Translations under genes and position numbers: made by a program | Origin: an uncultured Saprospiraceae bacterium | Lineage (GTDB): Bacteria; Bacteroidota; Bacteroidia; Chitinophagales; Saprospiraceae | Assembly: GCA_937944095.1 (NCBI GenBank) | Contig: CALEAC010000067.1 | Span: 1 to 32,936 of the forward strand | Length of the DNA stretch: 32,936 nucleotides | Direction: 5' to 3' | In this document: positions 6,980-32,936 of the stretch, piece after piece | Layout: each line of letters begins with the position of its first letter | Numbering within the stretch: position 1 is the stretch's first letter | The notes under the pieces: generated by a model | What the model was told of the DNA's origin: nothing | The model's input: only the letters and a program-made list of their open reading frames with translations | Database searches by the model: none

Positions 6980-7480
6980 ATGCAGATCAAAGACTTTAAC
7001 GTTTTAGTTGATAAAATGAAGGATAAGATGTACCGTCTTGCCCTACGAGTAGTCAGAAACGAAGAAGATGCCCACGAAGTTGTGCAAGAATCTTTTATCA
7101 AAGTGTGGAAGAAACGAGAAAAAATCGCCGAAGTCGATAATAAAGAGGCTTACTGTATGACAATAGCTAGAAATATGGCAATTGACCTACTACGCGCTAA
7201 GAAAATGAGCATCTCTGATATAGATGAGCACTATGATATAGAGACTAAAACGGCCAATCCTGAAAATGCCTTAGTTGCTAAGGATCAGTATGTCGATTTA
7301 TTAAAGATTATCGATACACTCCCAGAAAGTCATAAGCTGGTCATTCATCTTAGGGATATAGAAGGATACACCTATAAGGAGATAGCTGAGTTGACCGATT
7401 TTTCAGTAGAAAAGGTAAAAGTCTATCTCCATAGAGCTAGAACACGTTTAAGACAAATTATTAAAAATAGACCATCGTGA
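6980..7480 (+). CDS. ECF-type RNA polymerase sigma factor
   Basis: The protein is 166 residues from the ATG at 6980. The sigma-2 region contains YRLALRVVRNEEDAHEVVQ and FIKVWKKREKI. The sigma-4 region near the C-terminus reads LPESHKLVIHLRDIEG, then YTYKEIAELTDFSVEKVKVYL, a helix-turn-helix, and ends RARTRLRQII. There is no sigma-3 domain, as expected for the ECF group. A TTG at 6938 would add 14 residues. I prefer ATG 6980 because AAGGAG precedes it and the homologous region begins there, though the spacing of three bases is short. The next gene starts within the stop codon (GTGA overlap) and encodes a likely anti-sigma protein, so the pair is probably co-translated and mutually regulating. 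Confidence 0.93.
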   Translation: MQIKDFNVLVDKMKDKMYRLALRVVRNEEDAHEVVQESFIKVWKKREKIAEVDNKEAYCMTIARNMAIDLLRAKKMSISDIDEHYDIETKTANPENALVAKDQYVDLLKIIDTLPESHKLVIHLRDIEGYTYKEIAELTDFSVEKVKVYLHRARTRLRQIIKNRPS

Positions 7481-15272: not shown

Positions 15273-18200
15273 TTATTTCAAAATAGAGACATTGCCACTG
15301 TGTCTATATTCTTGATCATTGACACAAGTTGCTATGACACAGTACGCATATACATCTGGTGCGAGTTGTTCCCCATTAAAAGTTCCATCCCAACCTTGAC
15401 TCTGGTCGTTAGTTCGGAATACCTCTGAACCCCATCTGTCGACGACGAAGAATTCTATTTCTCTAATGAATTTACTTCGGACAAACAAACGATCATTCAC
15501 ATTATCACCATTTGGAGAGAAGGCACTTGGAATAAAGATATCTTCAGAACTGCAGGTTGGTGGTATCACTTCTATATCTGTCGAAGCAGAATTTTCACAT
15601 CCTTCTGAATTGACGCAAGTCACAGAATAGCTTGCATTTTCATTTGGACTTACAGTTATACTAGAACCTGTTTCTCCTGTACTCCATGTATAAGTACAGT
15701 CAGGGTCATCTGGATCAGCACTTAGTTCTATATCACTTCCTTGGCATACTTGTGGAAGACCTTCTTGGTCAGGTATGCCATTATCAGCTACAATCGATAT
15801 CTCCGGAACAGCTACCAGAACATCAAAGGTGACTGTTGTGTCTTCACCTGAAGCCATATCTGTTATGAGAACAGAAAAAGTTTTTGAACTTGTTGCCTTA
15901 ACTAAAGCAGTAGGGGTATCTCCACCTGAAATCACGCACTCTTCAGGTTCCCAGAAGTAAGTATAATCCTCTGGGTCGCCATCAAAGTCAAGTGATAAGG
16001 TAAACTCTTCTTCTGGACATACAATATCGTCACCTGAGATACTAGGATCAGAAGGTAAATTACTAACTCTAATCAGCACAATTGTATCTGAATCGCTACA
16101 ACCAAACTCATCTGTAATCTTAGCAACAACTGTTACTGTATCTTGTTCTGGGCTATATTCTAACGGATGACCAACAAATATGTCTGACGCTTCAGTACCA
16201 TCTATCAGACACCATCTTATACTATCTGGATCACCACTCGTCTCTGCCGTAACGGTTACCGGAGTCGCTTCATAAGTCAGAGTATCTAACGCGATATCTA
16301 TTGTAGAACCGAATGGGACCATTATATCTTCTGAATAGGGTTCTCCCATGCAGAAAACACTGTTATTTGATAGTGTGACTGTGTAGACACCCTCTTCGCT
16401 ATAGGTATAAGTCGGATTCTGCTCATTAGATGTGCCTATATCATCACCGAAATCCCATAAAACCCCATCTGGAAAATCTGCGTCTGATTCAAAGTGAATT
16501 GTGAATGAGCCGCAAGAATCAGGCTCAAAAGTGAATGCTGGGACATCCATCGCTAAACCAATCGTGAAATTAATAGTGTCCACTCTGGTGCACCCAAATT
16601 GGTTAGAAGTACATAAGACTAAGAAAAAATCTTCAGTCTGATTATCAGGAATACCGACAACTGGCGTTGCTGTCGTCTCGCCCGAGATCAGCTCATCACC
16701 ACCTTTCCATAGATATTCTATCTCTTGGTCAGGATTCACATTCGTGACCATGATTGCTGCGGTATCACCTGGACAAATGATATATGGGTTATTAAATTCA
16801 AGTTCTATAGGTTGTATATCTAGAGTGAACTGTCCTGAACCATAGAAACAATCATCTGTAATCTCAGTTTCTACATAAATCGTCCCTATAAAGTTTTCTG
16901 GTAATCCTGACATGTAAGTTGTCCCAGTAGCCACTAACTCGGTGAATCCAGGATCTGTGTACCAGTTGTATATAACCCCAGTAACAGGATCGACAATGAA
17001 CAAATTAAGACTGTCATTACATGGGTCAGAACTATTATTGTCTATGATGACAGGGAGGTCTATTAGGAAATCACCAGTGTCTATTGTTGTAAGTGGTGAT
17101 TGTGATATATCTAGAACAAGTCCATTGGTATAGGTCACTACTAGACCGACTTGTATTTCTTCATTGAGAGGTAGTTCTACTTCGACTGTCGGCCCAGTGT
17201 AGGTCACCCCATCTATAGTCCATACGATTGATTCTATGTCCATGCATTCAGGCACGAAACCATCGAAGGTAAATAAGAAAATGCCTGTAGAATCCATACA
17301 ACTTAGCAAATCGACATCATAATCTAAGGTAGGGGTAAAGTCTTCTGGTGAGAAAGTATTGCTATAAGTACTTGTACATCCATTTTCATATAGAACTTGG
17401 AGAGATACATTAACAACTTGGTCTCTGACGATGAATTCGACGCTTGGGCCAGATGAGATAGTTCCATTTACATTCCAGTTATATGATGATACCTCCGTAC
17501 CCGTAATATTAGTTACATCAGTTAGTGTAACGACGGTCTGATCTGGATCATCACAATTTATATCTTCGATTATATCTAAAGTGCCGACACTTGAATTAGC
17601 CGTAAAGACTTCCCTAGTAGAAACGACACAGCCATTCTGAAAACTGGTTTCTAAAGTGATATCGACAACATCACCTGAGTTCAGAAGTATGCTAATGGAA
17701 CCAGCATTAGAAGTTGCTACTGGTCCTGAGTTAACCGTGTAGCTCCACGAATAAGCTGGTGTGCCTAGCGAGTTGTTCGTGATGCTTGGTGTAAAAGTGA
17801 CTTCTTGTCCAGCTGGATCAAGACATAAGGGACTGTTGTTCGTGATCTGAACTTGCGGTAATAAGTCGCTCAAAGTATAATTACCACTAAAGTCATCGAT
17901 GCAAGCATTATCGACAATCATATCAATTGTAAATGACTCGGTACTAACGTTTACTGAAACTGGGTTTCCGATAACAGTCGTCGTCATATTATTGGCATCA
18001 GTGACCGTCCATGTTGTAGAGCTACTAGATCCATTAGACAGGATAATGACAGCACCATTGTCTGTACACTCTTCTATTGCGACTTCAGGGCTAATAGAAC
18101 CAAAAGTATCATTGTCTAGTGTAACTGTCAGAGGGTCAGAACAACCATTGTTGAGGTCCATCGTTACCGTATAACTATCTGTATCTATAGTCGCTGTAAC

Positions 18201-21200
18201 TGTATGTCCTGTTGCTGTCACTGTAGAATTGCCATCAGTAATGGTCCAAATAGCAACAGTACCTGAGCTATTCTCGAAGTTATATATAGTTCCGGTCGCT
18301 GTACAATTCACGACTATAACATCAAAGTCAGGTGCTAAGAAATCTTCCGAGTTATAAGTGTCTGTAATCAGATCATAACAATCATTATCTAGGGACATGG
18401 ATACAGTGAACTCACCACTTGGGATTAATAAGGATACATTATTCCCTGATAAGTTGAATGTCCCATTGTCTGTAAATATCGTCCAACTTGCATTTGCAGT
18501 TGTTGGATTAGTGAAGCTGAAGAAGTTGCCAGATGAAGTACAGCCTAGCAATCTAACGTCAATTTCAGGATTCAGAAATTCATCAGTTGAGAAGGTTGCT
18601 TCTATAGGACCGCTGAAGCAATTATTATCAGTATCCATGATCACAGTAAAATCTCCAAGTATAATCTCAAAGGTGATGTCAGGCCCGCTTAATTGCTGGG
18701 TGTTATTATTAGAGTCTATGATGCTCCAAAGTGTCGTTCCGCCTGCTGGATTAGACGCCATATAGGTATGCACTCCAGACTCACATGAAACGAGTACGAC
18801 ATCAAAGTTATAATCAGTTACAAGATCAGAAAGGTCAATAGATCGGGTTAGATTACTCCTATTGCATAAGTCATCAGAACTAACACTTAGACTCACCTCT
18901 ACGATACCATTAGCGGGTAGTTCTACAGTGAGGCTTTCTCCTGTAAAAGTATTACCATTGATGACCCAATTGCGTTCAAATCCATCAGCACCTACAGTGA
19001 TATCTTCGAAAAGTACTGTTATTCTATTACCGTCACATATGGTTGGTATCGCTCTGAAATCAGCTCTGATATCAGAAGGATTGACGTAGTCAAATACTTC
19101 GAATTCCATCGTGATTGGATCTGAACATCCATTATCTGGATCCATCGTTACAGAGAAGCTGTCAGTATCAATCGTTGCGGTAACAGTATGGCCAGATTCA
19201 GAGACAGAGCTATTGCCATCCACGATAGTCCAATCTACGACTGTCCCGCTATTATTTATAAAATTGAAAATATACCCTTCCTCTGTGCAGGCAACGAATT
19301 CTGCTTCGAATGATGCGTCTCTATAGTCGTCTGTATTGAAATCACTATTGATTGGGTCATAACATTGGTTCTCAGGAACCATTCTGACTGAGAAGGGCCC
19401 ATTAGGTATAGTCACCGTAACTAGGTTGCCTGAAAACGATTGAGCGCCTGAGCTAGACTCTACTGACCAATTTGCTGTATCGCCTGTCACATTAGTTAAG
19501 ACAAAAGTGCTGGTATTGGCATCGCAACTAATTAATCTTATATCGAATTCTTGTCGCGCAAGATCTGAGAAGCTAAAAGTTTTCGTTGCTGCATCCTCAT
19601 AACAAGTATTATCAGTATCCATGGTAATAGAGAAATTGGCATCTCCATTACTATTATAGAAAATTCGAAACTGAGCAACTGTGCCTGTAGCTGATTCTGG
19701 CACAACAGTCGAGCCTGACTCAATAGACCATTCCGTATCTCCACCAGCAGGATTCGTGACGATGATATCAAAATGCGTAGCTGTACAATCAACTAATTCC
19801 ACATCAAAATCAGGTGGATTTGCGAGGAGGTCAGACAAATTAATAGTGCGCGTTAGTTTACTTTCACATCCTTCATCATCTACTTTAGAGAAGCTTACTT
19901 CTACTAGGTCATTTTGATTAAATGTAAATTCCACATTTTCACCAGATGCTGATTGACCATTTATTATCCAATCTGCAGAATAGCCCTCTGCACCAACCGT
20001 TATGTCTTGGAAACGGATTGTTACATTGTCGCCATCACAGGCAATTGGAATAGCTCTGAAGTCAGCTTTGATTAATGCTTGGCTACCAACGGTAACAGTG
20101 AGGTCTCTTGTCACTATACAGCCATCTGAAGCTCTGATTGCTTCTAAGCGTACAGTGTAAGTGCCTGGCCCTGGATAGGTGAACGTTGGACTTGTTGCAG
20201 ATGACATCGTTGCTGGATCCGCACTCGGAAAATCAAAAAACCATCTATAAGTATCTGCACCAGTTGTATTATTGATAAAGGAAACTGTATTGTCTCCATC
20301 ACAACCACCACCACGTATTTCTACATCTACAGTTACAGGAGAAGTGCAGGCCACGACGTTATATTCGAAGTCTCTCATGACTGTTGACAATAATTCCCCG
20401 TTTCTGTATTCGTCTACACATACTCCAACGAGGTAAGTGCCTAAGATTTCTGGCGTGCCCATAAGAACACCATCGCTGTTAATCGTAAGTTCGTCACTAC
20501 TGCCAAACACGTCGTCTGTACCGAACCCATTATTCCATAGTATGGGGTCATAAGGTGGGCTAGATGGCGCTACAGGATATGGATTATCAATACTTGCACC
20601 AGACGAAGGTGCACAGAGTCGATATACAAGTACATCGCCATCTGGATCTGTCGCAGAATGATTAAAGTCTAGCGTCTGCCCAGAACATATATTGATAGCT
20701 GGCCAATCATTAAATACGGGTTGACTATTACATTCTTCTAATGCAGTGGTTGATAAAAATGCAAAATAAGTTGCCCCCGTTTCTAGAGGATTCTGGATGT
20801 TAGACAAAATGCCATTTCGACAACATCGTTGATACGCAACATAATAGCCTAACTTGTTATAAGGTAAACAGACGATGTCTTTATAGATTGCTTCTTCTAC
20901 GCAAATACCTTCTGCAGCACCTAGGCTGCAATCATCTAATGAGGTATTAAGTATTCTATAAGACGAAATAGGAGCAAATAGCTTTCCTGAGATTCCTAAA
21001 CCTACCTGTAACGCACCGAATCTATCATAAATCCCAATTGTTGCTGGATCATCTAACTCGGCATCACTAGCACCATTGATGCAATCTCTTTGGACAGTTA
21101 GAGTAATCTCATATTTATCATTACCCAGACATTTATACGTCAGGTCCCCACCAACAATATGAGTTGCTGACGATATACTTGGAAGCATAAATGCGACAAG

Positions 21201-21242
21201 TAGCCCTAAAAAAGTGATTTTGATATTTTTTAGAATAAGCAT
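15273..21242 (-). CDS. Giant secreted repeat protein with type IX (type B) sorting domain
   Basis: 1989 residues with a signal peptide (1-26, ending SSA|T). The mature start ATHIVGGDLTYKCLG is common among large Bacteroidota adhesins. A PKD-like domain lies at about 300-390. Residues 393-1130 contain nine ~80-residue modules, described separately. Further beta-sandwich/PKD-like domains follow, for example VLWDFGDD with NPTYTYSEEGVYTVTLSN at about 1570-1640. Residues 1897-1989 are a CHU_C domain (IFIPSAFSPNGDNVNDRL, FVVDRWGSEVFRT, GWDGTFNGEQLAPDVYAY), the gliding-motility/type IX sorting signal. The product is therefore expected to cross the outer membrane and attach at the surface. It is last in an apparent operon with PorP/SprF-like and OmpA-like genes, 22 bases after the latter. 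The ligand is unknown. Confidence 0.93.
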   Translation of the reverse strand: MLILKNIKITFLGLLVAFMLPSISSATHIVGGDLTYKCLGNDKYEITLTVQRDCINGASDAELDDPATIGIYDRFGALQVGLGISGKLFAPISSYRILNTSLDDCSLGAAEGICVEEAIYKDIVCLPYNKLGYYVAYQRCCRNGILSNIQNPLETGATYFAFLSTTALEECNSQPVFNDWPAINICSGQTLDFNHSATDPDGDVLVYRLCAPSSGASIDNPYPVAPSSPPYDPILWNNGFGTDDVFGSSDELTINSDGVLMGTPEILGTYLVGVCVDEYRNGELLSTVMRDFEYNVVACTSPVTVDVEIRGGGCDGDNTVSFINNTTGADTYRWFFDFPSADPATMSSATSPTFTYPGPGTYTVRLEAIRASDGCIVTRDLTVTVGSQALIKADFRAIPIACDGDNVTIRFQDITVGAEGYSADWIINGQSASGENVEFTFNQNDLVEVSFSKVDDEGCESKLTRTINLSDLLANPPDFDVELVDCTATHFDIIVTNPAGGDTEWSIESGSTVVPESATGTVAQFRIFYNSNGDANFSITMDTDNTCYEDAATKTFSFSDLARQEFDIRLISCDANTSTFVLTNVTGDTANWSVESSSGAQSFSGNLVTVTIPNGPFSVRMVPENQCYDPINSDFNTDDYRDASFEAEFVACTEEGYIFNFINNSGTVVDWTIVDGNSSVSESGHTVTATIDTDSFSVTMDPDNGCSDPITMEFEVFDYVNPSDIRADFRAIPTICDGNRITVLFEDITVGADGFERNWVINGNTFTGESLTVELPANGIVEVSLSVSSDDLCNRSNLTRSIDLSDLVTDYNFDVVLVSCESGVHTYMASNPAGGTTLWSIIDSNNNTQQLSGPDITFEIILGDFTVIMDTDNNCFSGPIEATFSTDEFLNPEIDVRLLGCTSSGNFFSFTNPTTANASWTIFTDNGTFNLSGNNVSLLIPSGEFTVSMSLDNDCYDLITDTYNSEDFLAPDFDVIVVNCTATGTIYNFENSSGTVAIWTITDGNSTVTATGHTVTATIDTDSYTVTMDLNNGCSDPLTVTLDNDTFGSISPEVAIEECTDNGAVIILSNGSSSSTTWTVTDANNMTTTVIGNPVSVNVSTESFTIDMIVDNACIDDFSGNYTLSDLLPQVQITNNSPLCLDPAGQEVTFTPSITNNSLGTPAYSWSYTVNSGPVATSNAGSISILLNSGDVVDITLETSFQNGCVVSTREVFTANSSVGTLDIIEDINCDDPDQTVVTLTDVTNITGTEVSSYNWNVNGTISSGPSVEFIVRDQVVNVSLQVLYENGCTSTYSNTFSPEDFTPTLDYDVDLLSCMDSTGIFLFTFDGFVPECMDIESIVWTIDGVTYTGPTVEVELPLNEEIQVGLVVTYTNGLVLDISQSPLTTIDTGDFLIDLPVIIDNNSSDPCNDSLNLFIVDPVTGVIYNWYTDPGFTELVATGTTYMSGLPENFIGTIYVETEITDDCFYGSGQFTLDIQPIELEFNNPYIICPGDTAAIMVTNVNPDQEIEYLWKGGDELISGETTATPVVGIPDNQTEDFFLVLCTSNQFGCTRVDTINFTIGLAMDVPAFTFEPDSCGSFTIHFESDADFPDGVLWDFGDDIGTSNEQNPTYTYSEEGVYTVTLSNNSVFCMGEPYSEDIMVPFGSTIDIALDTLTYEATPVTVTAETSGDPDSIRWCLIDGTEASDIFVGHPLEYSPEQDTVTVVAKITDEFGCSDSDTIVLIRVSNLPSDPSISGDDIVCPEEEFTLSLDFDGDPEDYTYFWEPEECVISGGDTPTALVKATSSKTFSVLITDMASGEDTTVTFDVLVAVPEISIVADNGIPDQEGLPQVCQGSDIELSADPDDPDCTYTWSTGETGSSITVSPNENASYSVTCVNSEGCENSASTDIEVIPPTCSSEDIFIPSAFSPNGDNVNDRLFVRSKFIREIEFFVVDRWGSEVFRTNDQSQGWDGTFNGEQLAPDVYAYCVIATCVNDQEYRHSGNVSILK
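17853..19064 (-). repeat. Second copy of the block with an extra module (A2-B1'-B2'-B3'-B4)
   Basis: 1212 bases encode residues 727-1130. A2 starts ADFRAIPTICDGN at 19064, B1' at 18806 (FDVVLVSC), B2' at 18563 (IDVRLLGC), B3' at 18326 (FDVIVVNC) and B4 at 18089 (PEVAIEEC). Each primed module is most like its partner in the first block. For example B1/B1' share NPAGG and WSI, and B3/B3' share GHTVTATIDTDS. Confidence 0.85.
19065..20066 (-). repeat. First copy of a four-module block (A1-B1-B2-B3) in the giant protein
   Basis: 1002 bases encode residues 393-726. Module A1 starts ADFRAIPIACDGD, B1 at 19808 (FDVELVDC), B2 at 19547 (FDIRLISC) and B3 at 19310 (FEAEFVAC). The same order returns in the next 968 bases. 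Confidence 0.85.
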
Positions 21243-21264: not shown

Positions 21265-23694
21265 TTAATTAATTACCTTGACACGGAATACTTCAGCTTT
21301 TCTTTGTCTAGAAGCATCTACGCTATAGATGGAAAGTCTCTTATTATTGTAGGAGTCAGAGATGCTTTTCGGAGCAATTTCTTCACCGAATGAAACCTCG
21401 ATAACTTTAAGTTGACCAGAGTTGATATAAGACATCAGAACACCTCCATTATATGATTTGAATTCATTCTTAACTGACCATATCCTTCTCTGCCCTAACG
21501 CTAGGTTGTACTTATTTGCTGCTCTCGGACTAGCATATCCTTTGAGTGCGACTTCTATTTCATCGCCATCTTGCAATTTGAGATGCAACTTATCTAGAAA
21601 AAGATTAAGCTTGTTATACCCAGTTTTTACTTCGGTTTCGAAGAAATACTCTAAATCATTTTCAGCACTATATTTCGTGTCGCCAATCATCTTTCGGGTG
21701 AATTCCATTTGAAATTCACTCTTTTTAGAAAGATAAGGGAAATAGGTATCTGTATATGTTTTGTTGGTGTTGAGACTTCTTGTTCTAGGGTTAGGCCTAT
21801 CATTGTCAAAGTAGACGATGACTGGTAAGTACATATTGAGATCGAATAAATCTTTCTTAAGGTAAATCTCCTTTTTGATTTTACCACCTTCGACATCTAA
21901 AGCCTTGAAAGTCATTGATTCCGAGATATAGCCTGGTCTAGCGACAACAAGCTGGTATTCCCGGCCTGCTGTAACTTCGAAATGAAAATCATTCGCAGCT
22001 AGATTCTTAATGACGACTGGATCAAGGTCGGGATCTGTTAAGTCGTATAGTGTGACTGTAGCGCCTTCTAATGCTTTTTTCGTATCGTCAGCAAAGGTTG
22101 TGACATCGAGTTTTAATTCGTTAGGCGTTAGGAATATTTTCTTGACGATTTCTGTTTTGTCTTCGCAATCTTTTAATGAGATGCTTGTTGTGTCACTTTG
22201 GTATCCAGCTCGATCAGTGATGATTGTGTATTCTCTGGCGCATTTTAGTTTTAGAATATGCTCATTACTGAGTTCATCGAGATTGTCATACAGTACTTCA
22301 CCAGTCAAAACATCAATAATCCTAACTCTACTGCCTGGCAGCATCTCTTCCGTCTGACCATCAAAGACGAGTGTTTTGAGGTCAACGAATAGCTCTTCTA
22401 TATCTACTTGATAGATGTCATAGCAGCATGCTTCGAAACTATCTTCTAGATGTAATGAGCCTGTCCTGTTAGACGATAGATAAGCCTTAGTGCCCTCATC
22501 ATTAACTGTATAGTAGAGGTCATTGAAACTTGTATTCGTAGGTGTTAACAAGTTCTCTGGTTCTGCGTAATTTTTGTCAATGAGCTTCGATTTATAGACG
22601 TCGTAACCACCAAGACCCATATAGCCATTAGAACTGAAGTATAGGTAACCCGAAGGTCCATGGAAGTATGGCGTCGCTTCATCGTAGTTTGTATTAAGAG
22701 ACTCTAGGTTCTGCGGTATAGAATAGGTCCCATCGTTTATCTCAGTGAACCATATATCTAAACCACCTTTTCCGCCTTGTCTGTCAGAAATAAAATATAA
22801 AATCTGGTCTCCAGTTAATGGATCAATATAAATATTGGGATGCGTGCTTGTACTTTCCAGTGCATTTATATGAGCTGGGAGTTTTGTGCCTTTGCCACTA
22901 TCGTCAATGTTTTTGACATAGATCTCGCAAGTGATATCCATTGAGTTTTCATAATTACAAATCGTGTAATACATCACATTGTCTTCTACAGAGTAGGAAG
23001 AATTAGCTTCATGTTGGATAACATTGTTTTTTTTCTTTTTTGCTTTCTTGTCTGAAGTAGCAGGTGTTAGATCAGTACTTGAATCTATGATCTTACTGTA
23101 TAGTCGATTCGGATTATTGTCATCATTATCCTCGAATCTAAGTGATGAGTATATCAATTCATCATCTATTTCTGAAGCTGCGAATTCGGAGTAAGGTGTA
23201 TTAACCTCAGCGCCCAGATGCGTAATAGTAACGCCTTCTTGTGGTGTATCTATTTGTCGAATAGCCCAATCTATTGCTTCTATGTTATTGTATGCTCTAG
23301 ACAGGAATCGTTCCTGACCTTCGCTGTTCTCTGCGATGAACAACTCATAATTCCGACGGGCTGCTTCATAATTTCCTTGTTGCTGTTGCATTTCTGCAAG
23401 GTGAAAAGGAGCTAATGGATAAGCGTTTATAGTATCGTTATCTGTTACAAACTGGAATTCCTTTTCAGCCAACCGATAGGAGTTAAAGGTTTTGGCTGAT
23501 TCAGCAAACTTATATTTCAGATCGATATCTGTAGAATCAAATTCTAATGCAGTTGCATAATAATACATGGCATTGTAGTAATCTTTATCAAGTGTCGCTT
23601 CATCCGCCGCTTTCAAAAAAGCCTTCAGTGTCTGAGCATCAGCATGATTGATAACTATGCTAGTCAATAATATTATGAGTAGATTACGAATCAT
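21265..23694 (-). CDS. TPR / PD40 beta-propeller / OmpA-like envelope protein
   Basis: 809 residues with a signal peptide (1-20, ending ADA|Q). TPR-type helices cover about 25-130 (YYNAMYYYATALEFDSTDIDLKY). PD40-type propeller blades follow at about 155-420, including ATPYFHGPSGYLYFSSNGY and GGYDVYKSKL. Two carboxypeptidase-regulatory-like or Cna-B-like domains occupy about 430-620. The C-terminal OmpA-like region begins VIVYFDNDRPNPRT and holds KGYASPRAANKYNLALGQRR. The usual GHTD of peptidoglycan-binding OmpA domains is replaced by GYASP. Genes of this type accompany PorP/SprF and CHU_C proteins and are thought to link the outer-membrane apparatus to the cell wall; the exact role here is inference. 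It lies 22 bases after the PorP/SprF-like gene and 22 before the giant gene. Confidence 0.88.
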   Translation of the reverse strand: MIRNLLIILLTSIVINHADAQTLKAFLKAADEATLDKDYYNAMYYYATALEFDSTDIDLKYKFAESAKTFNSYRLAEKEFQFVTDNDTINAYPLAPFHLAEMQQQQGNYEAARRNYELFIAENSEGQERFLSRAYNNIEAIDWAIRQIDTPQEGVTITHLGAEVNTPYSEFAASEIDDELIYSSLRFEDNDDNNPNRLYSKIIDSSTDLTPATSDKKAKKKKNNVIQHEANSSYSVEDNVMYYTICNYENSMDITCEIYVKNIDDSGKGTKLPAHINALESTSTHPNIYIDPLTGDQILYFISDRQGGKGGLDIWFTEINDGTYSIPQNLESLNTNYDEATPYFHGPSGYLYFSSNGYMGLGGYDVYKSKLIDKNYAEPENLLTPTNTSFNDLYYTVNDEGTKAYLSSNRTGSLHLEDSFEACCYDIYQVDIEELFVDLKTLVFDGQTEEMLPGSRVRIIDVLTGEVLYDNLDELSNEHILKLKCAREYTIITDRAGYQSDTTSISLKDCEDKTEIVKKIFLTPNELKLDVTTFADDTKKALEGATVTLYDLTDPDLDPVVIKNLAANDFHFEVTAGREYQLVVARPGYISESMTFKALDVEGGKIKKEIYLKKDLFDLNMYLPVIVYFDNDRPNPRTRSLNTNKTYTDTYFPYLSKKSEFQMEFTRKMIGDTKYSAENDLEYFFETEVKTGYNKLNLFLDKLHLKLQDGDEIEVALKGYASPRAANKYNLALGQRRIWSVKNEFKSYNGGVLMSYINSGQLKVIEVSFGEEIAPKSISDSYNNKRLSIYSVDASRQRKAEVFRVKVIN

Positions 23695-23716: not shown

Positions 23717-24757
23717 TTAAAATATGGGACACACTTTGAATTTGCCAAGTGGCTTGACATGTCTTATCAAATATCTGACATGAATTTCTGGACCGCCACC
23801 ACCATGCTCTTGTGAGAAATCATCAAAGTATATGTCATAGCTGGCAGCTATGAATAAGTTTTTGAATTCAATACCTAATTTGGGATAGATAGCCTGTCTG
23901 GTCCTATAGCCTACACCTACACGGAACTCAAACTCTTTTCCTCTATTCTGGTTAAGGTAGAAATTAAGATAACCCCCCACTAACCATTCATTGTATGCAT
24001 TTTGTTTTTGATATAGACCATCTAACTGGAGGTCTAGTTTGTCAGTCAGTTTCCTAGAATAGATACCATATAATGATAATCTTACAGGTAGTTGCTGACT
24101 TTCATTCTCATAGAAACGGGCTTTAGGTGTGATTAGATGGAAACCACCTATGCCTAAGTCTAATTTAGTTCTCGAAGATTTTTGCCATCTGTAATTAAGA
24201 CCTAGCGATGATTCTAGAAATCCGAAACGCTCATAATTAAAGCTCTCACCTGAACCGGAACTTGGGTCTACCGTAAAGGTGTTAGGATCCCAATAACGAT
24301 CCCAAGTCAGGTCATCTGGATTAAATCCTCTAGAAGCATAACCTAGTAACGCACCTATAGTTAGTAGATTCCTGTGGTTCAGAACCCTAGTATATGAACC
24401 AGCTAGATTAATATTAGCTAACTGAAGCTTGGAATCTCCTGCTACGTCATAGTTGAAAAACGCACCGGCACCGAAAAAACCTTTTTTGCTTTTTTTAGGG
24501 TATATCTTTCTATCATAACTAAGAGAAAAATTGAACCAAGGAATTGGCACAGGACGCCATTGGTCACGGAGAGATCCCATGATCCTTTCGTCACCATTGA
24601 ATATACCTGTGAGAGCTGGATTCACGGTCACAGGTGCATTATAGAACTGAGAATAATGGAAATCCTGTCCTGAGAGCTCTCCAAATGTTAAGATTGAAGA
24701 AATCACAAGAATAAATACGGATATCCTATCCCTAAGGCTGTTAGGTATAACGTACAT
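23717..24757 (-). CDS. PorP/SprF-family type IX secretion membrane protein
   Basis: 346 residues. A signal sequence (about 1-30, ending GELSGQ) is followed by DFHYSQFYNAPVTVNPALTG, the diagnostic N-terminus of the PorP/SprF family. Alternating amphipathic strands through to the C-terminus fit an outer-membrane beta-barrel (for example FGFLESSLGLNYRW, KLDLGIGGFHLITPKARF). In Flavobacterium johnsoniae SprF is needed for secretion of the adhesin SprB, so this protein probably serves the giant CHU_C protein encoded two genes downstream. It is the first gene of the apparent operon. ATG start at 24757. Confidence 0.92.
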   Translation of the reverse strand: MYVIPNSLRDRISVFILVISSILTFGELSGQDFHYSQFYNAPVTVNPALTGIFNGDERIMGSLRDQWRPVPIPWFNFSLSYDRKIYPKKSKKGFFGAGAFFNYDVAGDSKLQLANINLAGSYTRVLNHRNLLTIGALLGYASRGFNPDDLTWDRYWDPNTFTVDPSSGSGESFNYERFGFLESSLGLNYRWQKSSRTKLDLGIGGFHLITPKARFYENESQQLPVRLSLYGIYSRKLTDKLDLQLDGLYQKQNAYNEWLVGGYLNFYLNQNRGKEFEFRVGVGYRTRQAIYPKLGIEFKNLFIAASYDIYFDDFSQEHGGGGPEIHVRYLIRHVKPLGKFKVCPIF

Positions 24758-29472: not shown

Positions 29473-32400
29473 ATGTTCCAAGCGCGCAATCTTCGTTGGT
29501 TTATGTTGTTGGTCTCGGTATCGACCTTACAATTAGCAGCACAGGACTGTAAGCTACCTATATTATCATCAGCGACGGACTTTTCTGATTCAGGATTTAG
29601 GATTAGTTGGAATGATTTCAATGAGGACGTTCTATTTTGGGAGATAGAGCATGGTGTCAAAGGTTTTTCGAGAACTGAAATTCCGACTTTCAGTAATATA
29701 AACACCAAGTTTTTTGATCTCAGCGAATTGGAGTCTGGTAAGACTTATGAGATATATCTCAGGACAGTCTGTGGCATTTCTGATTTTAGTGATTGGAACG
29801 GGCCTTATTTTTTTAACACAGCCATAGATAATTCTAATTCTTGCTTGCTTGACCTTGCGATTAGTGACAATAATTGTCCTATCCCTAATACCTATTATGT
29901 ATCAATAGATGGCTTAGCTGGCAGCGACTTAGGAGATGATATTATATTAGAAAGTGTCGAGTTGATTATAGAGCACCCTTGGCCACCCGACTTAGATATA
30001 AGTCTGAGTTCGCCATCTGGCCAATCCATTTCACTGAGTGCTTATAATGGAAATGGTAAGGATAATTATGGAAATCCAAACATGGATGACTGTTCGTCGA
30101 CAATCCATTTTACTGATTTTGCTTGCGAAGATATCCAGGACCTTGTACCGCCACTAATCGGGCAGGTCCGACCAGAAATGCCCTTGGCCACACTGTATGA
30201 TGGGACGAGTGCTGATGGTCTCTGGTCTATTAATATTTGCGATCGAGCGACTGGAGACTTAGGCATATTAAAGTATGCTAAGCTGAACCTAGCCACCCAG
30301 GCTTGCGTTCTGCCACCCTTATTTCGTATCTCTGATATAGAAGGAGATCAAGTCACGATAGAATGGCAAGATGAATTTGCTTGTACCGCTATAGAATTGA
30401 TCTATCGCCGAGCTGTCGATCCAGGACAACTATCTAATGCTGAATATGTCATCTGCGCACAAGAAGAATTCACTATTTTAGATTTAGAGCCTGGAACAGA
30501 ATATATATTAACAGCACGGGTAGACTGTGGCGGAGGACTATCTGCTCCGATTAGTTGTCCTATAAGTTTTGTAACTGCTTGCGCGAACAGTAATCTCGTT
30601 ACGAACTTTGATCATGGGACTGTTTGTATACCTAATTGTGACGTCAGTTGCAAACTGGAGGGTATCTGGACAAATTCGGAATCAGCTAACTCTGATTGGA
30701 TATTGTACTCTGGTGAGACGTCCTCCTTAGGCACAGGTCCAAGTACAGATGTTTCTGGTACTGGTAATTATCTCTATATGGAGAACCAAGACCTTTGTGA
30801 TACACCTATTACTGTTTCGTTAATTTCAGATTGTTTGACTAAGCGACTCGATGAGAGCTGTGCTCTTACTTTTGACTATCACATGTATGGGGATGATATT
30901 GGAGATCTAGCAGTCCAATTTTCATCTGATTCGACTAATTGGCAACAGCTCTTTTTACAAACGGGATCTCAAGGCGATGAGTGGCATCGAGCAGAGGTGT
31001 CTTTAACACCGACTTTCGATAGAGGCTTGATCAGAATTACTGCGACCAGCAAAGTAACTGGTATACAAAGTGATATAGCCATCGATAATATTAAGCTAAT
31101 CGGCATAGATACAGTCTCTCCTATCAGCGTTTTTCTTGATGGAGATGGAGATGGATTTGGTGATCCGGCTGCCGTTGTACTAGTTTGCAATAATACCATA
31201 GGTTCTCAGTATGTCCTTAATGCGACTGATTGTGATGATACTGATCCGAGCGTATTTCCAGGAGCCCAAGAAATTAGATGTAATCAAATCGATGAAAATT
31301 GTAACGGGATGGCAGATGACCTTAGTGATGATGATTTGGATTATGAGGTCGTTAGAATATTGTCGGAGTCTTGTTCTGGTAGTCGAAATGGTGCGATTGT
31401 ATTACAAGCTTTTTCCGGCCAACCGCCTTATACTTATACCTGGAGCAATGATGATATGGGCGCAGGTGTAACAGATCTAGAATCTGGCGTTTACTTCTGT
31501 ACAATAACAGATGTAGGTGGTTGCCAAATTGTCACCGAGCCTATCTTTGTGGATTATGAGGATATACTTGTTTACAGTGTAAGAGAACTCAATGATCCTT
31601 CTTGTTTTGGAGAAAACGACGGTGGTATCGAGTTGCGTATTGATGGAGGCGTCCCGCCATACCAGGTAGAATGGAACAATAACCGCTCTGGTAGTCAGAT
31701 AGCTCAATTAGATGACGGCACTTATAATGCGACAATTTCAGATGCTTTTAATTGCGAAATAGTTATAGATAGTATAACCTTAGTTGGACCCCAGGTTCTG
31801 ACAGCAGGCGTCATTCTTAAGCGTGATAATCAGTGCAAGGATGGCAAGGTTGGCCTGATCCAAATTGCAATAGTTGGAGGTACTGGACCCTATGATGTCA
31901 ACTGGAGTAATGGTTCAGAACTAACCATCGTCAATAATTTGGAGTCAGGCAGTTATACGGTAACGATAACAGACGCTAACGGTTGTCTTAATATATTGCG
32001 TGATATCGAAATAACTGAACCCGACTCGATAAGTATCGATCTATTGAACATAGAACCAATTTCGTGCTATGAAGAATCTGATGGCTTCGTCGATATCAAC
32101 GTCTCGGGTGGCACTATTCCTTATTCCTACTTCTGGTCTAATGGGTCTTCGACTCAGGACCTTATCGGCATACCTGCGGGCAACTATGAGCTGACCGTCA
32201 CGGATGTCAATTCATGTTCAGCGATATTTACAGAGGTGTTTTTGGCACAGCCAGAAGAGTTACATATAGAGGTCGTCGATTTAGAGAACCTGAGATGCCC
32301 AGGTAGCAAGGATGGTCAGATAGGTGTTGCTGTTTCTGGTGGTAATCAACCCTATAACTATAATTGGGGTATAACAGATGGTGAGTTTTCGACGAGTCGA

Positions 32401-32936
32401 TTAGAATCGCTTTCGCCAGGAAGATATAGTTTGACCGTCGTAGATGGCGTCGGTTGTAAGTCAGATCCACTATCAGTAGAATTGTCAGCAATAGATGCCC
32501 CTCTTGAGATCGAACTGGATATAATTGAATCAGTACTTTGCCATGGGGACAGTACAGGAAAACTAGTGGCTTGTAATCGCAACGGCTTATTACCACTAGA
32601 CTATAATTGGAGTGCTGGAATTAAAAGCATAAAGAATACCCGAAAAGATACGCTTACTGATTTGCTTAGTGGTGCTTATAATCTGACCATTACAGACAAT
32701 GAAGGTTGTGTCGGCGTTTCTGATAGTGTAATAATTAACTCTTCTGATGCTATTTTGGTTTCTGAGATTGAGCTTATAGATAATCTCTGCTGGACAGAGC
32801 AGCTGGGAAGTATAAGCTTAGAAGTAGAAGGCGGTAGACCACCGTATGCTATTGCCTGGAGTCAAGGGTCTAACGGATTCGCCCTTGATGGATTAGAGAA
32901 TGGTCGTTACACAGCGACTATTACTGATGCCAATGA
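29473..32936 (+). CDS. Giant surface adhesin with SprB repeats (partial, C-terminus outside window)
   Basis: The frame is open from ATG 29473 to the window end, 1154 codons without a stop. Residues 1-24 are a signal peptide (ending LAAQ). An Fn3-like domain (about 30-118) is followed by a proprotein-convertase P-domain (about 124-272: LDISLSSPSGQ, GLWSINICDRATGDLGIL). A second Fn3-like domain lies at about 280-370 and a MAM-like jelly roll at about 377-545 (LTFDYHMYGDDIGDLAVQF, IAIDNIKLIG). Then comes a MopE-type metal-binding motif (about 556-615: DGDGDGFGDP, DCDDTDPSVFPGA, DENCNG) and seven SprB repeats to the edge. Secretion by type IX is expected but the sorting domain is not in view. It starts 20 bases after leuS. 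Confidence 0.88.
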   Translation, partial: MFQARNLRWFMLLVSVSTLQLAAQDCKLPILSSATDFSDSGFRISWNDFNEDVLFWEIEHGVKGFSRTEIPTFSNINTKFFDLSELESGKTYEIYLRTVCGISDFSDWNGPYFFNTAIDNSNSCLLDLAISDNNCPIPNTYYVSIDGLAGSDLGDDIILESVELIIEHPWPPDLDISLSSPSGQSISLSAYNGNGKDNYGNPNMDDCSSTIHFTDFACEDIQDLVPPLIGQVRPEMPLATLYDGTSADGLWSINICDRATGDLGILKYAKLNLATQACVLPPLFRISDIEGDQVTIEWQDEFACTAIELIYRRAVDPGQLSNAEYVICAQEEFTILDLEPGTEYILTARVDCGGGLSAPISCPISFVTACANSNLVTNFDHGTVCIPNCDVSCKLEGIWTNSESANSDWILYSGETSSLGTGPSTDVSGTGNYLYMENQDLCDTPITVSLISDCLTKRLDESCALTFDYHMYGDDIGDLAVQFSSDSTNWQQLFLQTGSQGDEWHRAEVSLTPTFDRGLIRITATSKVTGIQSDIAIDNIKLIGIDTVSPISVFLDGDGDGFGDPAAVVLVCNNTIGSQYVLNATDCDDTDPSVFPGAQEIRCNQIDENCNGMADDLSDDDLDYEVVRILSESCSGSRNGAIVLQAFSGQPPYTYTWSNDDMGAGVTDLESGVYFCTITDVGGCQIVTEPIFVDYEDILVYSVRELNDPSCFGENDGGIELRIDGGVPPYQVEWNNNRSGSQIAQLDDGTYNATISDAFNCEIVIDSITLVGPQVLTAGVILKRDNQCKDGKVGLIQIAIVGGTGPYDVNWSNGSELTIVNNLESGSYTVTITDANGCLNILRDIEITEPDSISIDLLNIEPISCYEESDGFVDINVSGGTIPYSYFWSNGSSTQDLIGIPAGNYELTVTDVNSCSAIFTEVFLAQPEELHIEVVDLENLRCPGSKDGQIGVAVSGGNQPYNYNWGITDGEFSTSRLESLSPGRYSLTVVDGVGCKSDPLSVELSAIDAPLEIELDIIESVLCHGDSTGKLVACNRNGLLPLDYNWSAGIKSIKNTRKDTLTDLLSGAYNLTITDNEGCVGVSDSVIINSSDAILVSEIELIDNLCWTEQLGSISLEVEGGRPPYAIAWSQGSNGFALDGLENGRYTATITDAN
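31351..32936 (+). repeat. Seven tandem SprB repeats (last one cut by window edge)
   Basis: Units of about 70-80 residues, each with a cysteine near the start (for example SCFGENDGGIEL, SCYEESDGFVDI), a GG..PY..xW core (SGGTIPYSYFWSNG) and an L.xGxYxxTITDxxGC end. Starts are near 31351, 31570, 31795, 32035, 32265, 32505 and 32755. The units are clearly related but not identical. Confidence 0.87.

Follow-up and report, generated by a model that had tools for sequence, protein, structure and literature searches.

The window analyzed here comprises all 32,936 nucleotides of contig CALEAC010000067.1 from an uncultured Saprospiraceae bacterium (assembly GCA_937944095.1). On its minus strand, an open reading frame at 15273-21242 encodes a surface protein of 1989 amino acids, in the central part of which a block of four modules, designated A-B1-B2-B3, occurs twice in tandem. 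The protein ends in a type B C-terminal sorting domain (residues 1903-1985, positions 15288-15536), recognized by PF13585 (CHU_C) at residues 1903-1985 with 51.4 bits (cut-off 27) and by TIGR04131 at residues 1904-1972 with 49.3 bits (cut-off 35). CHU_C, PKD and Ig_7 are among the six Pfam families matched by the protein at E 1. Its N-terminus is hydrophobic and, as judged by eye, resembles a signal peptide. This start and the domain that follows it (residues 1-302, positions 20337-21242) are conserved in the 11 orthologues described below, and no Pfam or NCBIfam model matched them.

A PKD domain (residues 303-388, positions 20079-20336; PF18911 at 322-385) precedes the module array, all features of which likewise lie on the minus strand. 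The first block consists of A (residues 389-477, positions 19812-20078), delimited by dot-plot, pairwise scores and a module profile, and of B1 (residues 478-564, 19551-19811), B2 (residues 565-643, 19314-19550) and B3 (residues 644-723, 19074-19313). The second block contains A' (residues 724-811, 18810-19073), B1' (residues 812-892, 18567-18809), B2' (residues 893-971, 18330-18566) and B3' (residues 972-1051, 18090-18329); these modules, like B1 to B3, were delimited by pairwise comparison. The blocks are followed by the single-copy module B4 (residues 1052-1130, 17853-18089), defined by comparison, module trees and the arrays of relatives, and by C1-C3 (residues 1131-1390, 17073-17852), which the module profile assigns to the same family. 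The array thus has 12 modules rather than the nine of the initial annotation, to which C1-C3 were added by the profile. B4, proposed earlier as an extra unit, is single in the window's array and is missing from two related arrays (G003 and G005, see below) that pass from B3 directly to C1-like modules.

The tandem repeat of the A-B1-B2-B3 block is real and far beyond chance. In masked-window searches, which were used in place of a whole-protein self-BLAST that yielded no off-diagonal match, residues 391-715 matched residues 725-1043 in one continuous alignment of 282 bits (44% identity, E 1.5e-89), whereas the best self-match at lags below 110 residues reached only 66 bits. The best internal similarity therefore lies several domains apart, at lag 334, which characterizes a multi-domain duplication. 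The two strongest off-diagonals of a self dot-plot, a comparison suggested by the initial annotation, were located at 683/1011 (offset 328) and 391/725 (offset 334). The block coordinates originally assigned were residues 393-726 and 727-1130; residues 393-1130 correspond to positions 20066-17853, from the first base of residue 393 to the last base of residue 1130. The spacing of 334 residues holds for the first part of the block and is reduced to 328 after B1, because B1 has approximately six residues more than B1'. At the DNA level the two blocks of the window are 51% identical, such that the silence of Tandem Repeats Finder, which reported a single row (7205-7242) and not the block, was to be expected. 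The low DNA identity of the copies also excludes recent slippage and an assembly duplicate.

Pairwise identities are 49% for A/A', 37% for B1/B1', 37% for B2/B2' and 58% for B3/B3'. By pairwise score, A/A' (218), B2/B2' (160) and B3/B3' (236) are reciprocal best partners. B1 finds its best partner in B1' (114), but three other modules exceed this score against B1', namely B2 (137), B2' (124) and B3 (116). The claim that every module has its nearest relative at the corresponding place in the other block accordingly holds in both directions for A, B2 and B3 and in only one for B1. In a tree of 34 modules that included those of relatives, the seven A, the seven B2 and the seven B3 copies each formed one clade (supports 99/98 for A, 98/95 for B3 and, not starred, 93/87 for B2). 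Trees that group B1, B2 and B3 by block, the arrangement that had been named as contradicting a block duplication, were rejected for both blocks (approximately unbiased [AU] test, p 0.0124 and 0.00078). The continuous match, the three clades and the rejection of grouping by block support a single event that copied a four-module block of about 1 kb. B1 to B4 are mutually related, so duplications of single modules did occur earlier, and one orthologue (G001) holds a single-module copy (lag 85, 62% identity). That the four-module unit was made entirely by repeated single-module duplications, the likeness of the blocks arising from chance and from convergence at equivalent positions, is nevertheless extremely improbable: it would require that A was inserted twice in the same phase, and it is contradicted by the block-long match and by the module tree.

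The copies are old, as the initial annotation had stated. Synonymous sites of the block pair are saturated (proportion of synonymous differences, pS, 0.82), compared with a proportion of nonsynonymous differences (pN) of 0.39. The stretch GHTVTATIDTDS is found in B3 at residues 684-695 and in B3' at residues 1012-1023, with identical amino acids and codons that differ at 9 of 12 positions, all synonymously, exactly as had been noted. From this count it had been concluded that selection on the protein sequence, rather than recent slippage, shaped the copies. The age of the copies bears out part of this conclusion but the codon argument does not: independent codons drawn according to the gene's own codon usage are expected to differ at 7.6 of 12 positions, and at nine or more in 30% of the draws. 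Across the whole block, 84 of 135 codons for identical residues differ (0.62 vs an expected 0.60). The codon count in GHTVTATIDTDS therefore conveys saturation only; it neither dates the copies nor measures selection. The proposed calculation of dN/dS between paired modules was carried out, but dS was not finite in any of the four modules, and with synonymous saturation the window's pair has no estimate of the ratio. The lower pN relative to pS is compatible with purifying selection on the fold.

Orthologues were identified through the N-terminal part, which had a match in each of the 14 genus genomes. In G004 the top match was only 36% identical and was treated as a paralogue, and the gene in G010 is cut at a contig end, which leaves 12 full orthologues including that of the window. 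The N-terminal part (388 residues) of the other 11 is 47-60% identical to the window's; in a second comparison of the relatives the values were 48-60% for the N-terminal and 43-52% for the C-terminal part. Between these conserved ends the arrays vary. A single profile, seeded from the window's modules and then iterated, tiles the central arrays of all 12 proteins with 116 modules, 5-16 in each: 12 in the window (G000), 10 in G001, 15 in G002, 16 in G003, 12 in G005, 6 in G006, 5 in G007, 9 in G008, 11 in G009, 9 in G011, 5 in G012 and 6 in G013. A whole-frame scan revealed an extra module match, either outside the central region or split, in six of the nine orthologues that recur as complete genes among the loci of a scan with the N-terminal alignment. 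Scanning genome contigs with the block protein yielded no relative; scanning them with the N-terminal alignment did, and a plasmid search returned a single record with 29.5% identity. Relatives of the N-terminal ~300 residues (THIVGG...YQRCCRN; 20337-21242, minus strand) are encoded in at least 554 of 595 candidate stretches from species genomes, and each genome of the genus has 2-12 matches to the N-terminal part, some of which cover only the PKD part.

The A-B1-B2-B3 block is present three times in G003 and twice in G005, as in the window, whereas the module tree revealed no such block in the other nine full relatives. Of the one- and three-block versions that the initial annotation had suggested looking for among relatives, the three-block version thus exists in G003, and a one-block version was not found among the full orthologues. 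Block identities are 58-65% within G003, 60% within G005 and 57-62% between the two, but only 36-42% between the window and either of them; the window's own two blocks share 44%. When all 945 trees of the seven blocks were evaluated, the window's two copies were joined in the best tree, whichever module was analyzed and likewise with the block taken as a whole. Since the window's copies group together, their duplication was either separate from that of G003 and G005 or was followed by homogenization long ago. The second alternative, in which a two-block array predates the split from G003 and G005 and was later homogenized in each lineage by old gene conversion, is possible but the less probable history; it overlaps with the interpretation favored below, which leaves room for it. 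In its favor, the order and phase of A-B1-B2-B3 are shared by all three species. A tree that pairs first with first and last with last blocks across species is not rejected by B2 (AU p 0.181) or B3 (0.321) alone, and within G003 and G005 the best B3 tree has this form. Without homogenization, however, a shared array is rejected for the whole block (log-likelihood difference 44.9, AU p 3.3e-5), for A (0.006) and for B1 (0.011), and the saturated codons rule out a recent homogenization of the window's copies. A duplication shared by G003 and G005 is favored by B3, while the whole block gives no decision. The species tree does not settle whether the window lies near G001/G011 or near G003/G005 (supports 47/60 and 48/56).

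How a third copy could arise is suggested by the middle block of G003, which is a mosaic. In its first two modules it is closer to block 3 (17 of 18 informative residues in A, 14 of 21 in B1), and in its last two to block 1 (20 of 28 in B2, 26 of 31 in B3). The optimal breakpoint falls within B1, and none of 5000 residue shuffles and none of 2000 shuffles of all nucleotides reached it. Consistent with this pattern, trees of the G003 blocks pair blocks 2 and 3 in A (p 0.046 for 1+2) and blocks 1 and 2 in B2 and B3 (p 0.116 and <1e-20 for 2+3). The middle block is what an unequal crossover in a two-block gene would leave.

Copies of several modules at a time are not confined to this block. Two further orthologues contain four-module tandem copies of other modules, G002 at lag 333 (71-75% identity) and G009 at lag 342 (57%); the module tree supports all four pairs of G009 (98, 97, 100 and 95) and three of those of G002 (99, 87 and 86), but not the fourth. 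A survey was based on 82 proteins with the N-terminal domain, 12 from the genus and 70 from 80 scanned loci, ten of which were dropped as repeats of genus genomes; exclusion of 12 proteins lacking a sorting domain left 70. In 31 of these (5 in the genus) the best self-match was a multi-module copy, defined by at least 100 bits and a length criterion, with lags of 154-613 residues; since the 70 include paralogues that share a genome, the 31 cases do not count as independent events. The lags vary, such that four modules are common but not the rule. It is very doubtful that four Ig-like modules form one structural super-repeat on account of which lineages with different modules converge on four-at-a-time copying. 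The four-step cases that might be cited for this idea are those of the window, G003 and G005, of G002 and G009, and of the three loci L084, L117 and L122; speaking against it are survey proteins with lags of about two, three, five and at least six modules.

In L084, L117 and L122, a duplicated block of roughly four modules that by eye look PKD- and Ig_7-like occupies residues ~398-1046 at a lag of 323-326. Identity is 53-59% between species and 46-49% between copies; since the species share the block, its duplication is older than their split. It was considered as a relative of the window's block but is a separate case, with 21-27% identity to the window over scattered stretches, two of which overlap the duplicated region (23% and 25%), and 32-44% identity in the PKD domain (residues ~303-409); L097 is included in these figures. 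Younger examples of the same kind of expansion are found in L074 (residues ~542-1420), whose copies at lags 253 and 506 are 93% and 89% identical as protein, those at lag 506 being 86% identical as DNA.

The expansion of domain repeats by several domains at once in the middle of an array has already been described (Bjorklund, Ekman and Elofsson 2006, PMC1553488). Relative to the expansions described there, the present case concerns a bacterial surface protein, and the mosaic block of a relative points to recombination between blocks. A literature search of limited coverage found nothing on the number of repeats in the 1989-residue protein.

Structure prediction is in line with an Ig-like stalk. 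AlphaFold2, provided with the alignment of the seven blocks, modeled four all-beta domains with a short helix after each (predicted local distance difference test [pLDDT] 87.9, predicted template-modeling score [pTM] 0.81), and a single B3 model from an alignment of 49 modules reached a pLDDT of 95.1. The structure nearest to the single module was a Bacteroides surface glycan-binding protein (Z 8.8), followed by Fn3 and PKD domains. The modeled fold is thus a common one, and its nearest folds are Fn3-, PKD- and Ig-like. The cysteines at B3 positions 9 and 63 are invariant in the 49 aligned modules (of 116), and an intramodule disulfide is likely; the window's C3 module, which is outside the 49, lacks the second cysteine. 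Foldseek matched the block model to fragments of fibronectin, of a receptor and of GhpA, the grappling hook protein of Aureispira (PDB 9flu and others), with low template-modeling (TM) scores across several domains. GhpA is a bacterial protein among the best of these matches, but its likeness is at the level of the fold (13-16% identity, TM ~0.2), as for fibronectin and the receptor, and it was absent from the matches of two PDB sequence searches. Searched against PDB sequences, the module profile recovered one weak relative, 9wt0 (E 7e-4), and two entries above E 0.3, and the PorE-like, PorP-like and N-terminal proteins yielded nothing at E 0.01.

The gene for the 1989-residue protein follows two genes on the same strand that encode a PorP/SprF-like and a PorE/OmpA-like protein. 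The former (23717-24757, 346 residues, ending in KVCPIF) is an outer-membrane carrier according to TIGR03519 (148.4 bits, cut-off 90.55) and PF11751 (108.2, cut-off 22.3). The latter (21265-23694, 809 residues) is a likely cell-wall anchor known from NCBIfam matches below cut-off, NF053607 with 143.3 bits (cut-off 620), NF052230 (PorE) with 140.5 (cut-off 600) and TIGR02802 with 26.4 at residues 695-773 (cut-off 125.35); no Pfam family matched it at E 0.001. It is best called PorE-like only, and a trio of the PorP-PorE-type B kind may serve as a working model rather than as a statement of membership. The PorE-like gene adjoins at 13 of 13 loci and the PorP/SprF-like gene at 12, the thirteenth (G011) being cut by the contig end. 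For type B substrates an adjacent gene of the PorP/SprF family is usual, although not universal. In all 12 orthologues of the carrier, the last 45 residues contain a single cysteine, fourth from the end, and the C-x-C tail motif is absent. The tails of 27 other PorP/SprF-family proteins from three genomes were compared: eight end in C-P-x-F/Y/L, and three that lie beside gldK have no tail cysteine. Among the matches listed in a literature search, no other paper treated such carrier tails. In the PorE-like protein, cysteines are invariant at residue 246 (12 of 12 aligned sequences) and at residues 256, 423 and 424 (13 of 13); they are possible disulfide partners for the carrier tail. Elsewhere in the window, at 29473-32934 on the plus strand, a second large surface protein, which matches the SprB repeat, MAM, P-domain and Fn3 families, continues past the window end.

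The neighborhood bears on whether the protein is fixed or moves over the cell surface. In Porphyromonas gingivalis, PorP and PorE occur in a complex with a type B protein, and it was proposed that non-mobile type B proteins are held via PorP-PorE-like complexes (PMC9143113). Of the type B proteins of Flavobacterium johnsoniae, one that has a PorE-like neighbor is static, whereas SprB and others move (PMC12618676). The trios PG1035-PorP-PorE of P. gingivalis and Fjoh_3952-3951-3950 of F. johnsoniae resemble the window's genes, as far as those reports describe them, in the type B sorting domain and the PorP/SprF-like and PorE-like neighbors, PG1035 being likened by description only. They differ from them in that the window's PorE-like protein falls far below the PorE cut-off and the window's type B protein has a module array with a variable number of blocks and an N-terminal domain without Pfam or NCBIfam match. 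SprB and SprF likewise combine a long repetitive type B substrate with a carrier of the PorP/SprF family, and SprF of F. johnsoniae is disulfide-bonded to GldK through the cysteines of a C-x-C tail that is invariant in its close homologues (PMC12635249). A gliding adhesin that its PorP/SprF-like partner moves along a track, in the way SprF carries SprB, would agree with the sorting domain, the carrier and its invariant tail cysteine, and with the presence of SprA and of GldK (in two pieces on two contigs) in the window's genome. It is nonetheless unlikely given the missing C-x-C tail, the adjoining PorE-like gene and the absence of SprB repeats (PF13573) from the Pfam matches of the 1989-residue protein. 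The PorE-like neighbor, the lack of a C-x-C tail and the published type B/PorP/PorE cases together suggest that the protein is an adhesin with a static anchor.

We consider it likely that copies of the block are gained and lost by unequal recombination in a type IX-secreted, statically anchored adhesin with an Ig-like stalk. Directly observed are the block repeat, the synonymous saturation, the orthologues with zero, two or three blocks between conserved ends, and the mosaic third block. Several observations weigh against this interpretation. The best-match relation between B1 and B1' runs in one direction only, and in the best tree the seven B1 copies do not form a clade, although a tree constrained to unite them is not rejected (p 0.162). 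Third codon positions taken by themselves give no significant mosaic in G003 (373 of 2000 shuffles reach it), as is expected from the saturation of these positions; the best B1 tree of G003 pairs blocks 1 and 3; and gene conversion could also produce the mosaic. The score of the PorE-like protein lies far below the PorE cut-off, and the invariant tail cysteine of the carrier allows a disulfide link to a moving track.

According to the favored model of unequal recombination in a static adhesin, unequal homologous recombination between modules or blocks that resemble each other would create and remove copies. The type IX system would export the protein, whose C-terminal domain would remain bound to the neighboring PorP/SprF-like barrel, and the PorE-like protein would tie this barrel to the cell wall, as homology and the published cases suggest. 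The Ig-like array would hold the conserved N-terminal domain at the tip, away from the cell, and one added block would lengthen the stalk by four domains. That stalk length is a target of selection is a guess.

The original observation of a duplicated block thus stands, its interpretation as an event stands in outline, and the argument for selection is weaker than first stated. The mode of growth is already known from domain-repeat proteins, and the present protein, itself of a known kind, illustrates this familiar change well. The orthologues, with no, two or three blocks between conserved ends, form a natural series for the way in which bacterial surface stalks change in length, and the mosaic block of G003 records how a third copy could arise. 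The gene neighborhood leads to the testable prediction that the adhesin is static and does not glide.

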